Shown here one piece after another: positions 18,777 through 27,450 of a stretch of DNA of 33,187 bases (within the stretch, counting starts at the first letter, position 1; every line of letters begins with the position of its first letter). Both the position numbers and the translations under genes were made by a program. The notes under the pieces are model-generated. The model worked only from the letters and a program-made list of their open reading frames with translations, did not search any database and was not told the origin of the DNA. Source of the DNA: Methanoculleus sp. (GTDB lineage Archaea > Halobacteriota > Methanomicrobia > Methanomicrobiales > Methanoculleaceae); the NCBI RefSeq assembly GCF_020696975.1, contig NZ_JAJGBK010000025.1, forward strand, positions 1 to 33,187, written 5' to 3'.

Positions 18777-19070
18777 CTTCACCCGGATACCTCTATATCA
18801 AAAAGGTTATGTTTTTAAATAATGGTGAATGCTCCCCCGTTTTAAAATCAGCACTTTCGACAAACCCTGTGAGTCAGGATATCTGGACAATACTGCCCCC
18901 TGAATTCTCTACCCTGTTACACCGCCAAATCCCACTTATTCTTCGAGAACTCGTCTAAATGGGTGATCTTTATTTTTATGATTCTATCCATATACTCTGG
19001 CTCTCCAGAACCGACCATTACCGCCGCAAGCCATCCTTAACACTCCTCCGTATATCTGAATGTGGGATAA
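18777..19070. other. AT-rich intergenic spacer
   Basis: After the acyltransferase stop the sequence turns AT-rich. GGTTATGTTTTTAAATAA near 18806 holds a T5 run that could end transcription of the acyltransferase. Short inverted repeats (CGAG-AA-CTCG at 18944-18953; TCTGG-CTCT-CCAGA near 18995) are seen. No convincing gene was found on either strand. The lower GC content sets this stretch apart from its flanks. Confidence 0.45.
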
Positions 19071-19080
19071 CTATATATAT
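19071..19080 (+). promoter_or_regulatory. Strong TATA box of the surface-protein cluster
   Basis: CTATATATAT, preceded by GGATAA, is one of the best TATA boxes in the window. With the usual archaeal spacing transcription would begin near 19100-19104, leaving a leader of about 165 nt before the ATG at 19270. Confidence 0.65.
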
Positions 19081-19101
19081 GATAATAGGTATCTCTAGGT
19101 C

Positions 19102-19263
19102 ACGGTAGTTGCCAAGGCCAGCCGGGTGGGGAAGAGAACAGAATGCCGATGGGCACCCGGCCGGCCGATGAGGCAAGGCCATCCTGGTCCCCGGGAAAGA
19201 GCCGCACTACTGTGCCAGGTGGCCCGTCTCGCAAACCACCGCCTGGAAGCCTAACTACGGAGG
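19102..19263 (+). promoter_or_regulatory. Long structured 5' leader (candidate cis-regulatory RNA)
   Basis: The leader can be folded by eye. A closing stem GTAGTT (19105-19110) pairs with AACTAC (19253-19258). Inside, stem I runs TTGCC (19109-19113) with GGCAA (19172-19176), then GGCC-A-GCCGGGTG (19116-19128) with CACCCGGC-C-GGCC (19154-19166), one mismatch in 13. Stem II starts at the next base: GGCCA-T-CCTGG (19177-19187) with CCAGG-TGGCC (19215-19224), ten pairs and one bulge. The 3' arm CCAGGTGG (19215-19222) can alternatively pair with CCACCGCCTGG (19236-19246). The ribosome-binding site GGAGG (19259-19263) follows the closing stem at once. It matches no riboswitch class that I know; the pairing was not tested by covariation. 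Confidence 0.55.
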
Positions 19264-19269
19264 AATGAC

Positions 19270-20310
19270 ATGAACTTTCGAGCACCGTTAGGTATCGTTA
19301 CCGCGGTTATGATGATACTGGCAGTCATGGTTCTGCCGGTATCGGCGGCAGTTTCGCCGCAGGATGTTGACACGAAGGCTAAGATTGCGACGGGGGGAGG
19401 GTGCGCTCCCATTGTGCTCGCAAAATGGGAGGCCGACACAACTGGCTGCCTGGAAGACGGCGATCCGACACACGCTATCAATGGAAGTCAGTTCCTGCCC
19501 CCAGTAACATATGACGGTAAGAAGACTATTAAGTATTACTCTATCGTCTACGATGAGGAAGAGAACGGCAACGTGAATGTCGTTTCCTGGGATATCTTCC
19601 AGCCGAACAACTGCTGGGGCAACGGTGCATTTGTGTACCAGGTGATGGGCGAGAAGATCACCAACAAGGCTGAGGCTGTTGCTCTCTTCCAGGCGGCTGT
19701 GGACGCCAATCTCGTGGAGTTCGATGACGAGTACGACGCAAACCTCATCCTCACCGAGTACCTCGAGAAGGGCACTGCCGCTCTCTGGGTTGGCCAGTCA
19801 GATCTTTGCTACTGTTCTCCTGCCGGTGACTACCGCGTCGAGGCGTTCGCCGTCGACCACAACAACAACTGGGCCTGCGCGCTGGAGAACACCTTCTGCT
19901 ACGTGCCCGTCACTGCCTTTGACATCGACTTCTGCACGGTCAACTACGGGTCCGTGAACATCAACGAGCCCAAGTGGATTGCAGGCAACACCATCTTCTC
20001 TGAGAACGATGGCAGGCCGACCGTCCGGAACATCGGCAACACCTACATGCAGGTCACCGTCGAGCAGGACGACATGCAGCTCGGGGAGAGCCTGAACGGC
20101 TGGAACGTCAAGTGGGGAGCCCGTATGGGCAACGATGACGCCAACGCGGTCTACTACGACCCCGAAGGATGCGCTACCCTGCCCAACTACCTCGGCCTCT
20201 GCGGCCAGGATGAGCTTGACTTCTCCATCGAGGTCTACAAGGGAACCACCGGTGAGAAGTGCGGCACGATGACCCTCGGTGCCGAGATCTGGGAGTGCTG
20301 CCCCGCGTAA
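19270..20310 (+). CDS. Secreted Cys-containing surface protein (paralogue A)
   Basis: A 346-residue exported protein that I do not recognise by name. Residues 1-27 are a signal peptide (hydrophobic core, cleavage near PVSA-AVS). The mature protein is acidic, rich in Asn, Asp and aromatic residues, and has about 14 Cys, including CYCS near 180 and ECCPA at the C-terminus, suggesting disulfides or metal binding outside the cell. It has no C-terminal anchor. It aligns along its full length with the last 280 residues of the protein at 21682-23250: both have GSQFLPP, a DLCYC/DLSFC site before GDY, F-IDF--VNYG, PTVRN-GN and QDDM. GGAGG lies 6 nt before the ATG at 19270. It may be an abundant envelope or sheath component (inference from the promoter and leader). 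Confidence 0.85.
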   Translation: MNFRAPLGIVTAVMMILAVMVLPVSAAVSPQDVDTKAKIATGGGCAPIVLAKWEADTTGCLEDGDPTHAINGSQFLPPVTYDGKKTIKYYSIVYDEEENGNVNVVSWDIFQPNNCWGNGAFVYQVMGEKITNKAEAVALFQAAVDANLVEFDDEYDANLILTEYLEKGTAALWVGQSDLCYCSPAGDYRVEAFAVDHNNNWACALENTFCYVPVTAFDIDFCTVNYGSVNINEPKWIAGNTIFSENDGRPTVRNIGNTYMQVTVEQDDMQLGESLNGWNVKWGARMGNDDANAVYYDPEGCATLPNYLGLCGQDELDFSIEVYKGTTGEKCGTMTLGAEIWECCPA

Positions 20311-20352
20311 GTCGTCGGGCATCTAGTGTAGGTTGTGACTATTTGCCGGTTA

Positions 20353-20371
20353 TGCGCCGATCCCCGGCGCA
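20353..20371 (+). other. Hairpin in spacer between first and second surface genes
   Basis: TGCGCCG-ATCCC-CGGCGCA is a perfect 7-bp stem in the 120-nt spacer, followed by GACCGGTTTTATG with a short T4. It could partly terminate transcription after the first gene or protect its 3' end, giving more of the first product than of the next two. Confidence 0.45.
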
Positions 20372-20430
20372 ACGACCGGTTTTATGACTGCGATACGCAG
20401 CCAGAGATTACAGAGGAAAAAGGAGAGGCG

Positions 20431-21624
20431 ATGAATCTGAGAAGAAGGGTGGCGATGGTTGCCGTCATCGTAATGGTGGCGGTGATCATCTGCCAGCCCG
20501 TGAGTGCTGCAGGCATAGCCGTCGGACCATCCAGCCAGACGATCGAGAACGCGCTGCGCGGAGGGTCCTTTGAACGGTCGCTGACCGCCTTCAACCCGTC
20601 TGACACGGGCTTTGAAGTGGCTTTTAAGACCGAAGGTTCCGCAGGGGACTGGATCCGGTTCTCCACCCTCGCGAGCGAGAAGGAGATCCAGCAGGTCTAC
20701 GTCCCGAAGAAAGGCCAGACTCCTGTCCTGATGCGGGTGACGGTCCCCGACGATGCGGCGAACGGCCGTTATACGGCAACCATCATCGTTGAGACGCTTC
20801 CCGGTGAAGAAGTGCCGGGCTCGGTGGGGATGATCCTGCGTGCGACATCCACACTGGAGATCACAGTAACCGATGTCGAGAAGGCCTCGGGTGCAGTCAC
20901 GAGCATCGTGGTGAGGGATACCGAGGTGGATGTCCCGGCGGCCATTGAGGTCGGTTTCAAGAACACCGGGAATGTCGTCGTAACCCCTGAGATCACCGCC
21001 GTCATATCACGTGACGGATCGGTCCTTGACACTGTGACCTGGACCGAGACGCCGGTTCGGCCGGGGATTACGGAATCGATAGTGGTCCATTGGCCTAACG
21101 AGGGATTTGCTGCCGGGGCCTGTCAGGCGAACGTGACGGTTTCGCTCCGTGGTGAGGTGCTGGTGGACGAGGGTCGTACCTTCAATATCCTGCCGCTAGG
21201 GTCCCTGACCCGACAGGGTGAACTGACCGAACTCACGTATGACGGAGCGCTCGTTGTCGGCCAGCCGATCAAGGTCACAGGGGTCTTCAAGAACTCGGGA
21301 TCTATCGCGACAAGAGCCAAGTTATCCGGTGAGGTTTACCGGGGAGGCAGCCTTATCGATGTGGTATCCAGCGATGAAATGACCGTTCTGGTCTTCTCCG
21401 AGGACCTTCTGACGGCGTACTACACTCCGAAGGAGCCGGGAGACTACACGATGAAGACCCGTGCTGTCTTTGAGGGTAAGACGACCGATTCAAAGGATAT
21501 AGCCTTTAGCGTCCAGCCCGATTCGTCAGGTCTGAGTCTGCCGCTCTCCCCGGTCCCGGTTGCTGCAGCGCTCGCGTTCATCTACCTCTTCGCAATGGGA
21601 AGCCGTGATCGCAAGAAACGGTGA
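20431..21624 (+). CDS. Membrane-anchored beta-sandwich surface protein
   Basis: A 397-residue exported protein. Residues 1-27 form a signal peptide ending PVSAAG. The mature part begins IAVGPSSQTIENALRGGSFERSLTAFNPSD, which looks like a NEW3/DUF916-type immunoglobulin-like domain (about 28-150), followed by two CARDB-like beta domains (about 155-260 and 265-365; VGFKNTGNVVVTPEITAV, VTGVFKNSGSIATRAKL). A C-terminal hydrophobic segment near 372-390 and the ending RDRKKR anchor it in the membrane with the basic tail inside. GGAGAGG precedes the ATG at 20431; the earlier in-frame start would not give a signal peptide at the N-terminus. It lies between two paralogous secreted proteins and probably holds them at the surface (inference). 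Confidence 0.83.
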   Translation: MNLRRRVAMVAVIVMVAVIICQPVSAAGIAVGPSSQTIENALRGGSFERSLTAFNPSDTGFEVAFKTEGSAGDWIRFSTLASEKEIQQVYVPKKGQTPVLMRVTVPDDAANGRYTATIIVETLPGEEVPGSVGMILRATSTLEITVTDVEKASGAVTSIVVRDTEVDVPAAIEVGFKNTGNVVVTPEITAVISRDGSVLDTVTWTETPVRPGITESIVVHWPNEGFAAGACQANVTVSLRGEVLVDEGRTFNILPLGSLTRQGELTELTYDGALVVGQPIKVTGVFKNSGSIATRAKLSGEVYRGGSLIDVVSSDEMTVLVFSEDLLTAYYTPKEPGDYTMKTRAVFEGKTTDSKDIAFSVQPDSSGLSLPLSPVPVAAALAFIYLFAMGSRDRKKR

Positions 21625-21632
21625 CCGACAGC

Positions 21633-21649
21633 CCGTGCGTTTTGCACGG
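21633..21649 (+). other. Hairpin in spacer between second and third surface genes
   Basis: CCGTGC-GTTTT-GCACGG is a perfect 6-bp stem in the 57-nt spacer, ending about 30 nt before the next start codon. The spacer before it also carries a hairpin. Confidence 0.4.
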
Positions 21650-21681
21650 ATGCGGTCCCCTTTACAGAAAAGAGGCAATTG

Positions 21682-23250
21682 ATGACGAGGATTATAAAAG
21701 GGATCGCGATATTCCTCGCGATCTTCCTGATTTCAGTCTCCATCGTGCCGGTATTTGCAGGTTCGCCTGTGAATATCTCTGAGGATCCCCTTACCGAGGA
21801 TACCCCGGGAACTGAGACCGGTGCCGGAGAAACCGGCAACAGCAATCTGCTGCCGGATGGGCCTCTTGTGGAACCGACTACCTCCGGTGAGGATTCGTCT
21901 GATCCGGATGAAGACTCTTTGAATTCTGATGGTTCGTCCGATGATGAGATGGACGATACGTCTTTAGAGGGCGACCAACCCGGGGAGACACCTGCCCCGG
22001 AAGCAGACGTGACCCCGACATCCACGTATCAGCCTGAAGAGACGACGATGCCTGTCGATCCGACTCCGTCAGTAACCACAGAGCCAACTCCTGCGGTGAC
22101 TGTGGACCCGACCCCGACAGCAACTGTTGATCCGACTCCTACGACGACCGTCGATCCGACCCCATCAGCAACCCTGGATCCGACTCCTACGGTGACTGTG
22201 GATCCGACATCAACGACGACCGCCGGGCCGGATTCAGGCAACGAGACGTCCGGGAACACTACGGTGCTCAATGAATCGACACCGGTCCCGACGAACTCCA
22301 CCGACCCGTTCCCTCTACTCAACGCCACGCCGGGTCCCGGAATCGCCGAGAATGAGTCCACGGGCTCGTCGCCCGGGGACAGTACTCTCGGGGAGGTCCC
22401 CTCTCGTATGACCGTGCTCTGCATCTGGGAGCAACTTGATCCCGCTGCTGGTTCGCTCGACGATGACCCGGTCCAGCCGGGAAGTCAGTTCTTGCCTCCC
22501 TGTGCCTACGGGGCTACAGAGACCGTGCAGATCCGCGCGGTTATTGCCGGGGGCGGTGCGGCACCCTACCCGGTCGTGGCTGAGGTAACGTTGCCCGATG
22601 GTTCAGCCTTCTCTCAGATCAACCTGACTTCTCAGGACTCCCCGGTGGGTGCACTCGAGGCGGCTTCGACCGCCGGGCTGATCACCTACGCTCAGCACAC
22701 GAGCCTCAATGACGTTGTACGCGCCCTGGAGGAGGACAGTGCCACGGTCTATGCAGGCGAGGTTGACCTCTCGTTTTGCGAGGCGCCCGGCGACTACCAC
22801 GTCGTGGTGCGGGTCCTGTCTGATGAGGAAGACCCGGCCGAGCAGTCGCTTGCAAGCATCTTTACGTACGTGCCGACAGCATCGTTTGAGATCGACTTTG
22901 CCGCGGTGAACTACGGAACCGTTGAACAGGGGATCGATGCCTGGGTCCGGGGTGACACCGTGTTCGGGACGGCACAGTACCCGACGGTGAGAAACACCGG
23001 CAACGTGCCGGTGAGTATCATCATCACCCAGGATGACATGGGGCTTGACGATTCTGTCGTCTATACGGCAAAACTTGGTAACGACGGCACTCTCGTCACC
23101 TTCGGGCCGATGGAGGAGGTAACGCTTCCCGGCGCCGTGCCGGTGAATGAAGCAACACCGCTCTCGCTCGCCCTCAAGATTTCCAGCGGCGAGGGCACAC
23201 CGTATGGCAAACTCCGGGTCAGTTGCACCCCCGTAACGGGGGAGAACTGA
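21682..23250 (+). CDS. Secreted stalk-plus-head surface protein (paralogue B)
   Basis: A 522-residue exported protein with three parts. Residues 1-24 are a signal peptide (MTRIIKGIAIFLAIFLI...VPVFAG). Residues about 25-240 are a low-complexity stalk, first Ser/Asp/Glu-rich, then Thr-Pro repeats of the form PTxTVDPT, then Asn/Thr/Ser-rich with several N-glycosylation sites. Residues about 242-522 are a beta-rich head homologous to the protein at 19270-20310 (GSQFLPP, DLSFCEAPGDYHV, FEIDFAAVNYGTV, PTVRNTGNVPVSI, QDDMGL) but with fewer Cys. It has no C-terminal anchor. The ATG at 21682 was preferred to the TTG before it. The long stalk fits projection from the cell surface. Confidence 0.83.
   Translation: MTRIIKGIAIFLAIFLISVSIVPVFAGSPVNISEDPLTEDTPGTETGAGETGNSNLLPDGPLVEPTTSGEDSSDPDEDSLNSDGSSDDEMDDTSLEGDQPGETPAPEADVTPTSTYQPEETTMPVDPTPSVTTEPTPAVTVDPTPTATVDPTPTTTVDPTPSATLDPTPTVTVDPTSTTTAGPDSGNETSGNTTVLNESTPVPTNSTDPFPLLNATPGPGIAENESTGSSPGDSTLGEVPSRMTVLCIWEQLDPAAGSLDDDPVQPGSQFLPPCAYGATETVQIRAVIAGGGAAPYPVVAEVTLPDGSAFSQINLTSQDSPVGALEAASTAGLITYAQHTSLNDVVRALEEDSATVYAGEVDLSFCEAPGDYHVVVRVLSDEEDPAEQSLASIFTYVPTASFEIDFAAVNYGTVEQGIDAWVRGDTVFGTAQYPTVRNTGNVPVSIIITQDDMGLDDSVVYTAKLGNDGTLVTFGPMEEVTLPGAVPVNEATPLSLALKISSGEGTPYGKLRVSCTPVTGEN
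22053..22224 (+). repeat. 24-nt tandem repeats encoding Thr-Pro stalk
   Basis: About seven imperfect copies of a 24-nt unit encode the octapeptide PTxTVDPT (variants include PSATLDPT and PAVTVDPT). The protein sequence is better conserved than the DNA, as third positions differ between copies. Such minisatellites can change copy number and so stalk length. Confidence 0.75.
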
Positions 23251-27376: not shown

Positions 27377-27450
27377 TGGGCTCGCTGAGATTCGAACTCA
27401 GGACCTCCGCCATGTCAAGGCGACGTCATAACCAGCTAGACCACGAGCCC
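27377..27450 (-). tRNA. tRNA-Val (anticodon GAC)
   Basis: On the minus strand the full cloverleaf can be drawn: acceptor GGGCTCG with CGAGCCC and discriminator A, D arm with GTC/GAC and the GG of the loop, anticodon arm TCGCC-TTGACAT-GGCGG with anticodon GAC, and T arm CTGAG-TTCGAAT-CTCAG. No intron is present and the 3' CCA is not encoded. GAC reads GUC and GUU codons for valine. Confidence 0.95.

Follow-up and report, generated by a model that had tools for sequence, protein, structure and literature searches.

Directly upstream of gene A, which encodes a secreted protein, the analysed window (the whole 33,187-nucleotide Methanoculleus sp. stretch) carries a folded region (19098–19269) that is a new archaeal leader RNA of narrow distribution and very probably a functional, cis-acting one. 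Ten genomes (seven of Methanoculleus, one of Methanofollis (G105), and two of Methanocalculus) together hold twelve such leaders, each preceding an orthologue of this one protein, and gene A would be the gene that the leader regulates. Comparison of the leaders shows support for four predicted helices (P1, P2, P3, and P4), a kink-turn sequence, a putative helix between the loops of P2 and P4 (L2–L4), and the linkage to gene A. The best explanation, to which we give an even chance, is that the kink-turn and L2–L4 docking beside the Shine-Dalgarno (SD) sequence set translation of the secreted protein. Structure counts and the RNAalifold consensus refer throughout to A7, the alignment of the seven alignable leaders, and R1 denotes a covariance model of the Methanoculleus and Methanofollis leaders. 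The leader and its surroundings are arranged as follows.

19070–19080, forward strand: TATA box of the promoter, ACTATATATAT
19098–19246, forward strand: structured leader RNA, P1 to P4 (R1 match, alignment A7, RNAalifold consensus)
19259–19263, forward strand: ribosome-binding site GGAGG (from the sequence; a GGAG-type motif in relatives)
19270–20310 including the stop codon, forward strand: gene A, secreted protein with two Ig-like β-sandwich domains (predicted model)

R1 matches the leader of the window with 172.6 bits. The TATA box, already recognized in the initial annotation, is present in all 11 leaders measured, and in each of these the last TATATA begins 30–34 nt before GGTAG. Because this distance is near-constant and corresponds to the usual archaeal spacing from TATA box to start, we infer that the transcript begins at the foot of P1, at its 5' strand. 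The SD sequence GGAGG begins 12 nt below P4, and the interval between leader and gene A is without a U-run, which makes transcription attenuation less likely.

Taken singly, the leader is unremarkable: its minimum free energy of −73.5 kcal/mol compares with −70.9 ± 4.7 kcal/mol for shuffled sequences (z = −0.55), a stability no greater than a GC-rich leader would give, and the case for structure therefore rests on comparison. The following helices were delineated among the seven leaders.

19101–19108, forward strand: P1 5' strand, CACGGTAG, pairing with 19207–19214
19207–19214, forward strand: P1 3' strand, CTACYGTG; CTACCGTGCC is also found in three of the four Methanocalculus leaders
19110–19175, forward strand: P2 arm, comprising P2a (19110–19113/19172–19175), P2b (19116–19119/19163–19166), and P2c (19121–19128/19154–19161)
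19177–19203, forward strand: P3 hairpin of variable length, outer pairs 19177–19179/19201–19203 and inner pairs 19182–19187/19191–19196
19215–19246, forward strand: P4 hairpin, stem 19215–19220/19241–19246, abutting P1

P1, P2, and P3 meet in a three-way junction that P1 closes, and P4 lies outside P1, the boundary between the two (19214/19215) being without a spare base. RNAalifold, run on the seven leaders with no constraint, returned the same architecture as the structure built by hand, with P1 at 19101–19109/19206–19214, P2 interrupted by an asymmetric AA/GATGA loop, P3 at 19177–19203, and P4 at 19215–19222/19239–19246; six pairs of its consensus change on both sides in a compensatory manner. 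In the hand-built structure 97.1% of cells are paired across the seven leaders, as against 28–44% when the strands are slid by one to three columns. The pairing amounts to 55 of 56 cells in P1 (three pairs vary on one side), 92.9% in P2a, 95.2% in P2b and P2c together (two P2 pairs carry two-sided changes), and 100% in P4 (one two-sided change), and P3 contains one covarying pair, seen as G-C, A-U, and G-U. Shuffles reached the observed number of pairs with two-sided change in 12 of 500 cases, and the covariation power afforded by seven alignable sequences is limited. An exhaustive scan for helices of at least six pairs kept in all seven leaders recovered only P1, the L2–L4 helix, and P4; a shuffled alignment held a mean of 0.145 conserved 6-bp helices versus four observed. 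Forcing P1 and P4 to form raises the free energy above the unconstrained minimum by 0–4 kcal/mol in six of the seven leaders and by 11.8 kcal/mol in G004.

These comparisons bear on the view that the pairing is a chance product of GC-rich sequence, with sequence conservation reflecting recent ancestry or promoter constraint only. Such an explanation is favored by the single-sequence z-score and by the number of alignable sequences, only seven, but P1, P4, and L2–L4 stay paired through sequence changes, the slid and shuffled controls fall far lower, and the DNA upstream of the TATA box has diverged (53% identity within Methanoculleus, versus 78% for the leader and 79% for the coding sequence, CDS). 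It is already disfavored, and we regard it as highly improbable. The covariation among homologous leaders that the initial annotation had proposed to look for is thus present, and its reading of the region as a cis-acting structured leader is borne out by the compensatory changes, by a constraint close to that of the CDS, and by strict linkage to one gene. A conserved 5' UTR structure with compensatory changes is a feature that the leader shares with riboswitches as a kind.

The fold first drawn for this leader proved to be half right. All of its pairings are present in the window, yet only some are kept among relatives. Its stem I (5 pairs and 12 of 13 pairs around AA/GATGA) is P2, retained in the seven leaders with few mismatches, and the "alternative pairing" near the ribosome-binding site is P4, fully kept in all seven. 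Its closing stem, GTAGTT/AACTAC, pairs at six of six positions in the window, but relatives keep between two and five of the six; its stem II pairs at ten of ten positions with one bulge here, but relatives keep six to nine, with an unpaired C/A in most. Conservation of stems in close relatives holds for P1, P2, P3, and P4, and the closing stem and stem II of the first fold, tested on the seven leaders, were rejected as conserved pairings. Lacking from that first fold were P1 and the L2–L4 helix; on the comparative evidence, the predicted true closing stem is P1, CACGGTAG/CTACYGTG.

The asymmetric loop in P2 and the loops of P2 and P4 contain the sequences on which a tertiary fold would depend.

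19114–19115, forward strand: kink-turn non-bulged strand (2n-1n), AA here and GA in four relatives (A7)
19167–19171, forward strand: kink-turn bulged strand, a GAU bulge followed by GA (1b-2b), with four of five positions invariant
19148–19153, forward strand: docking strand in the P2 loop, GAYGGG, pairing with 19223–19228 in all seven leaders
19223–19228, forward strand: docking strand in the P4 loop, CCCRUC, partner of 19148–19153

By its sequence the asymmetric loop in P2 has the makeup of a standard kink-turn (two helices separated by a bulge of three nt and tandem G.A and A.G pairs), with [G/A]A opposite GAU-GA between GCC/GGC and GGCC/GGCC, located four pairs above the junction and about 90 nt upstream of the SD sequence; in G004 the bulged strand reads GGTGA. 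In the nomenclature and folding rules of PMC6298567, the 2b.2n pair is A.A in three of the seven leaders and G.A in four, most leaders have a Watson-Crick G:C pair at 3b:3n, and −1b:−1n is C:G. A Watson-Crick 3b:3n pair is reported to prevent kink-turn folding by metal ions alone, C:G at −1b:−1n favors ion-induced folding, and all kink-turns analysed fold with L7Ae (PMC6298567). A kink-turn with A.A at 2b.2n is unstable in isolation and folds within SAM-I given tertiary contacts, and one natural A.A kink-turn folds with L7Ae (PMC3651934). Because 3b:3n is Watson-Crick and 2b.2n is often A.A, the kink-turn of the leader, and with it docking, is probably conditional, helped by docking, L7Ae, or both; the genome encodes an L7Ae-family protein on another contig (C7).

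The six complementary bases of the P2 and P4 loops vary together at the 19150/19226 pair, which is U.G in five leaders and U-A and C-G in one leader each, and the probability of at least 6 bp forming between column-shuffled loops is 0.001. As judged from the alignment, the secondary structure of the leader is well-supported, and the argument for one tertiary contact, L2–L4, is a good one.

In the proposed mechanism, the RNA would start at the 5' end of the transcript and fold into the three-way junction followed by the 3' hairpin P4, with the abutting P1 and P4 able to stack. The kink-turn would bend P2 back along P1 and bring the P2 loop onto the P4 loop, and docking would then lock P1 and P4, so that P4 is held 12 nt above the SD sequence and P1 at the 5' end. 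Docking would be conditional, the kink-turn probably needing L7Ae and/or the loop–loop contact, and its likeliest consequence would be a change in how readily the ribosome reaches the SD sequence and hence in translation, of either sign. The unpaired probability of the SD sequence in the predicted fold ranges from 0.26 to 0.99 across leaders, and no conserved pairing that hides it was found among them. Whether the leader controls translation through docking is in our judgment evenly balanced.

The same features can be read as those of a 5'-end stabilizer, a compact constitutive cap against 5' decay or a device for a fixed translation level, with neither switching nor ligand. In all leaders measured the P1 5' strand begins where the transcript is predicted to start, the element is confined to a single gene, with which it was duplicated in Methanocalculus, and the sequence of the three-way junction is not conserved (invariant positions: none of three in J3/1 and none of one in J2/3), so that there is no obvious ligand pocket. 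We also count in its favor that in another methanogen 24% of mRNAs have a 5' UTR longer than 150 nt (PMC5378194). A stabilizer, however, needs only stems, not a kink-turn and a conserved loop–loop docking helix, and L4 is conserved beyond that helix as well (7 of 12 positions). We hold this reading to be a tentative possibility, somewhat on the unlikely side.

Alternative pairings raise the question of a switch. The P1 5' strand (19103–19109) can form 7 bp with codons 10–12 of gene A (19297–19303), kept in all seven leaders through sequence changes (P ≈ 0.1 versus shuffles), and both this leader–CDS helix and stem II are candidates for the alternative state of a switch. A new class of archaeal riboswitch, in which a ligand or L7Ae controls docking and the freed P1 5' strand pairs with the start of the CDS, appears unlikely. 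Binding of a small metabolite at the docked L2–L4/P1–P4 interface, which would switch the RNA, appears decidedly so. A kink-turn and a loop–loop contact to a hairpin before the SD sequence do follow a known riboswitch plan (PMC3651934), and stem II versus P1/P4 and the leader–CDS helix offer mutually exclusive pairings. Against metabolite binding stand the restriction to one gene family, a secreted Ig-like β-sandwich protein that is not visibly metabolic or transport-related, the variable junction, which speaks against an aptamer of the ordinary junction-binding type, the weak support for the competing helices, the leader–CDS helix included, and the lack of an Rfam match.

Docking of L2 onto L4 beside the SD sequence remains our preferred reading, and the distribution of the leader is narrow. 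Leaders were located by DNA search and by a protein-profile search of 232 Methanomicrobiales genomes; the former detected it in the representatives of six more Methanoculleus species (76–82% identity), and the latter added Methanofollis G105 and both Methanocalculus genomes. R1 scored 137–173 bits in exactly the eight Methanoculleus/Methanofollis genomes that hold gene A and found no other convincing match in the 232 Methanomicrobiales genomes or in 393 genomes of the phylum. A single marginal R1 hit in a genome from a different order (G302, E = 0.004) was dismissed as chance, lying inside a CDS on the opposite strand. The leader is absent upstream of gene A orthologues in G042 and G125 and at distant gene A relatives in Patescibacteria and a Chloroflexi bin; the plasmids searched gave no match to it, and the viral contigs searched held no relative of the gene A protein.

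Each of the two Methanocalculus genomes has two tandem gene A paralogues with one leader apiece. These leaders have P1, the TATA spacing, and a 3' hairpin in common with the Methanoculleus-type leaders; their P2/P3 domain does not align, R1 does not recognize them, and a separate covariance model built from them (R2) convincingly found only its own four leaders among the 232 genomes. Both Methanocalculus "a" leaders (L038 and L061) show GGGUG/CACCC complementarity in corresponding places, which is no more than suggestive. The same two leaders contain a 10-bp helix, GGGUGAUUUC/GAARUCRCCU, that overlaps the start of the P1 3' strand; this helix would compete with P1, a possible switch in Methanocalculus.

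The relatives also speak to control by a leader peptide or upstream open reading frame (39–44 codons, stopping close to the start codon). In the window, a 39-codon frame begins with the ATG at 19149, and its TGA (19266–19268) adjoins the start of gene A, but this ATG is missing in G004, the frame, sequence, and stop position are not conserved, indels whose lengths are not multiples of three occur, and no conserved leader peptide was found. This candidate was rejected, its probability being close to negligible.

The gene A product is a protein of 346 aa whose start resembles a signal peptide and which belongs to no Pfam or NCBIfam family. A structure model from twenty sequences (mean pLDDT of 84) shows two β-sandwich domains, and its PDB matches are generic Ig-like, surface or adhesin-type sandwiches with middling scores; the named relatives found with the protein belong to Methanoculleus, Methanofollis, and Methanocalculus. 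Genes A, B, and C (19270–23250) form a cassette of secreted or anchored proteins, C being a distant paralogue of A. Methanoculleus and Methanofollis have kept this cassette, Methanocalculus has kept part of it, and the order A then B is seen in Patescibacteria (L112 and L114) too. Between A and B (20345–20385) a G+C-rich hairpin is followed by TTTTAT, and Methanofollis (L058) has a hairpin of different sequence at the same place; it looks like a terminator or attenuator that could yield more A than B. Elsewhere in the window, a tRNA gene (27377–27450, reverse strand) is the sole Rfam match at the gathering threshold.

An Rfam search with cmscan, run both at the gathering thresholds and with a limit of E ≤ 10, returned nothing relevant for the leader, in agreement with the initial statement that it resembles no known class; SAM-I (RF00162), lysine (RF00168), and cobalamin (RF00174) in particular gave no covariance-model match up to E = 10. 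The literature searched contained no report of it, and neither there nor in Rfam was a structured leader RNA of Methanomicrobiales found. To our knowledge, archaea have so far yielded few structured leader RNAs. In the cobalamin riboswitch, a loop of the receptor domain kisses the loop of a downstream hairpin close to the SD sequence, much as a hairpin beside the SD sequence is kissed in the predicted leader fold; the junction is of another kind, and gene A is not a cobalamin gene. The lysine riboswitch, whose fold is reportedly organized by a kink-turn and a loop–loop interaction (Blouin and Lafontaine 2007, as cited in PMC3651934), likewise shares both elements, but has a five-way junction where the leader has a three-way one, and gene A is not a lysine gene. 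The kink-turn of SAM-I has the same orientation as that of the leader, the 3' strand carrying GAUGA close to the junction. As predicted for the leader, the P2 of SAM-I carries a standard kink-turn that enables a long-range contact of the terminal loop (PMC3651934). SAM-I differs in its four-way junction; the leader has a three-way junction with P4 outside P1, the loop partner sits in that outer hairpin beside the ribosome-binding site, and no SAM-related gene is involved.

Archaeal leaders autoregulated by L7Ae have a 5' UTR kink-turn with a GAU bulge and neither 3b = C nor 3n = G (PMC5539422, PMC6298567), and in these respects the leader kink-turn is the same. Theirs, however, lies at the SD sequence of l7ae, whereas here it would be embedded in a large tertiary fold far upstream, and C:G at −1b:−1n in the leader favors ion-induced folding. 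An L7Ae autoregulatory leader was rejected, given a secreted-protein gene, an l7ae-family gene elsewhere, and a kink-turn far from the SD sequence. Set among these systems, the leader presents a defined, testable tertiary fold, a predicted kink-turn with loop–loop docking, at a single surface-protein gene, and thus a concrete system in which to ask whether L7Ae- or ligand-assisted docking of a leader RNA controls archaeal translation.
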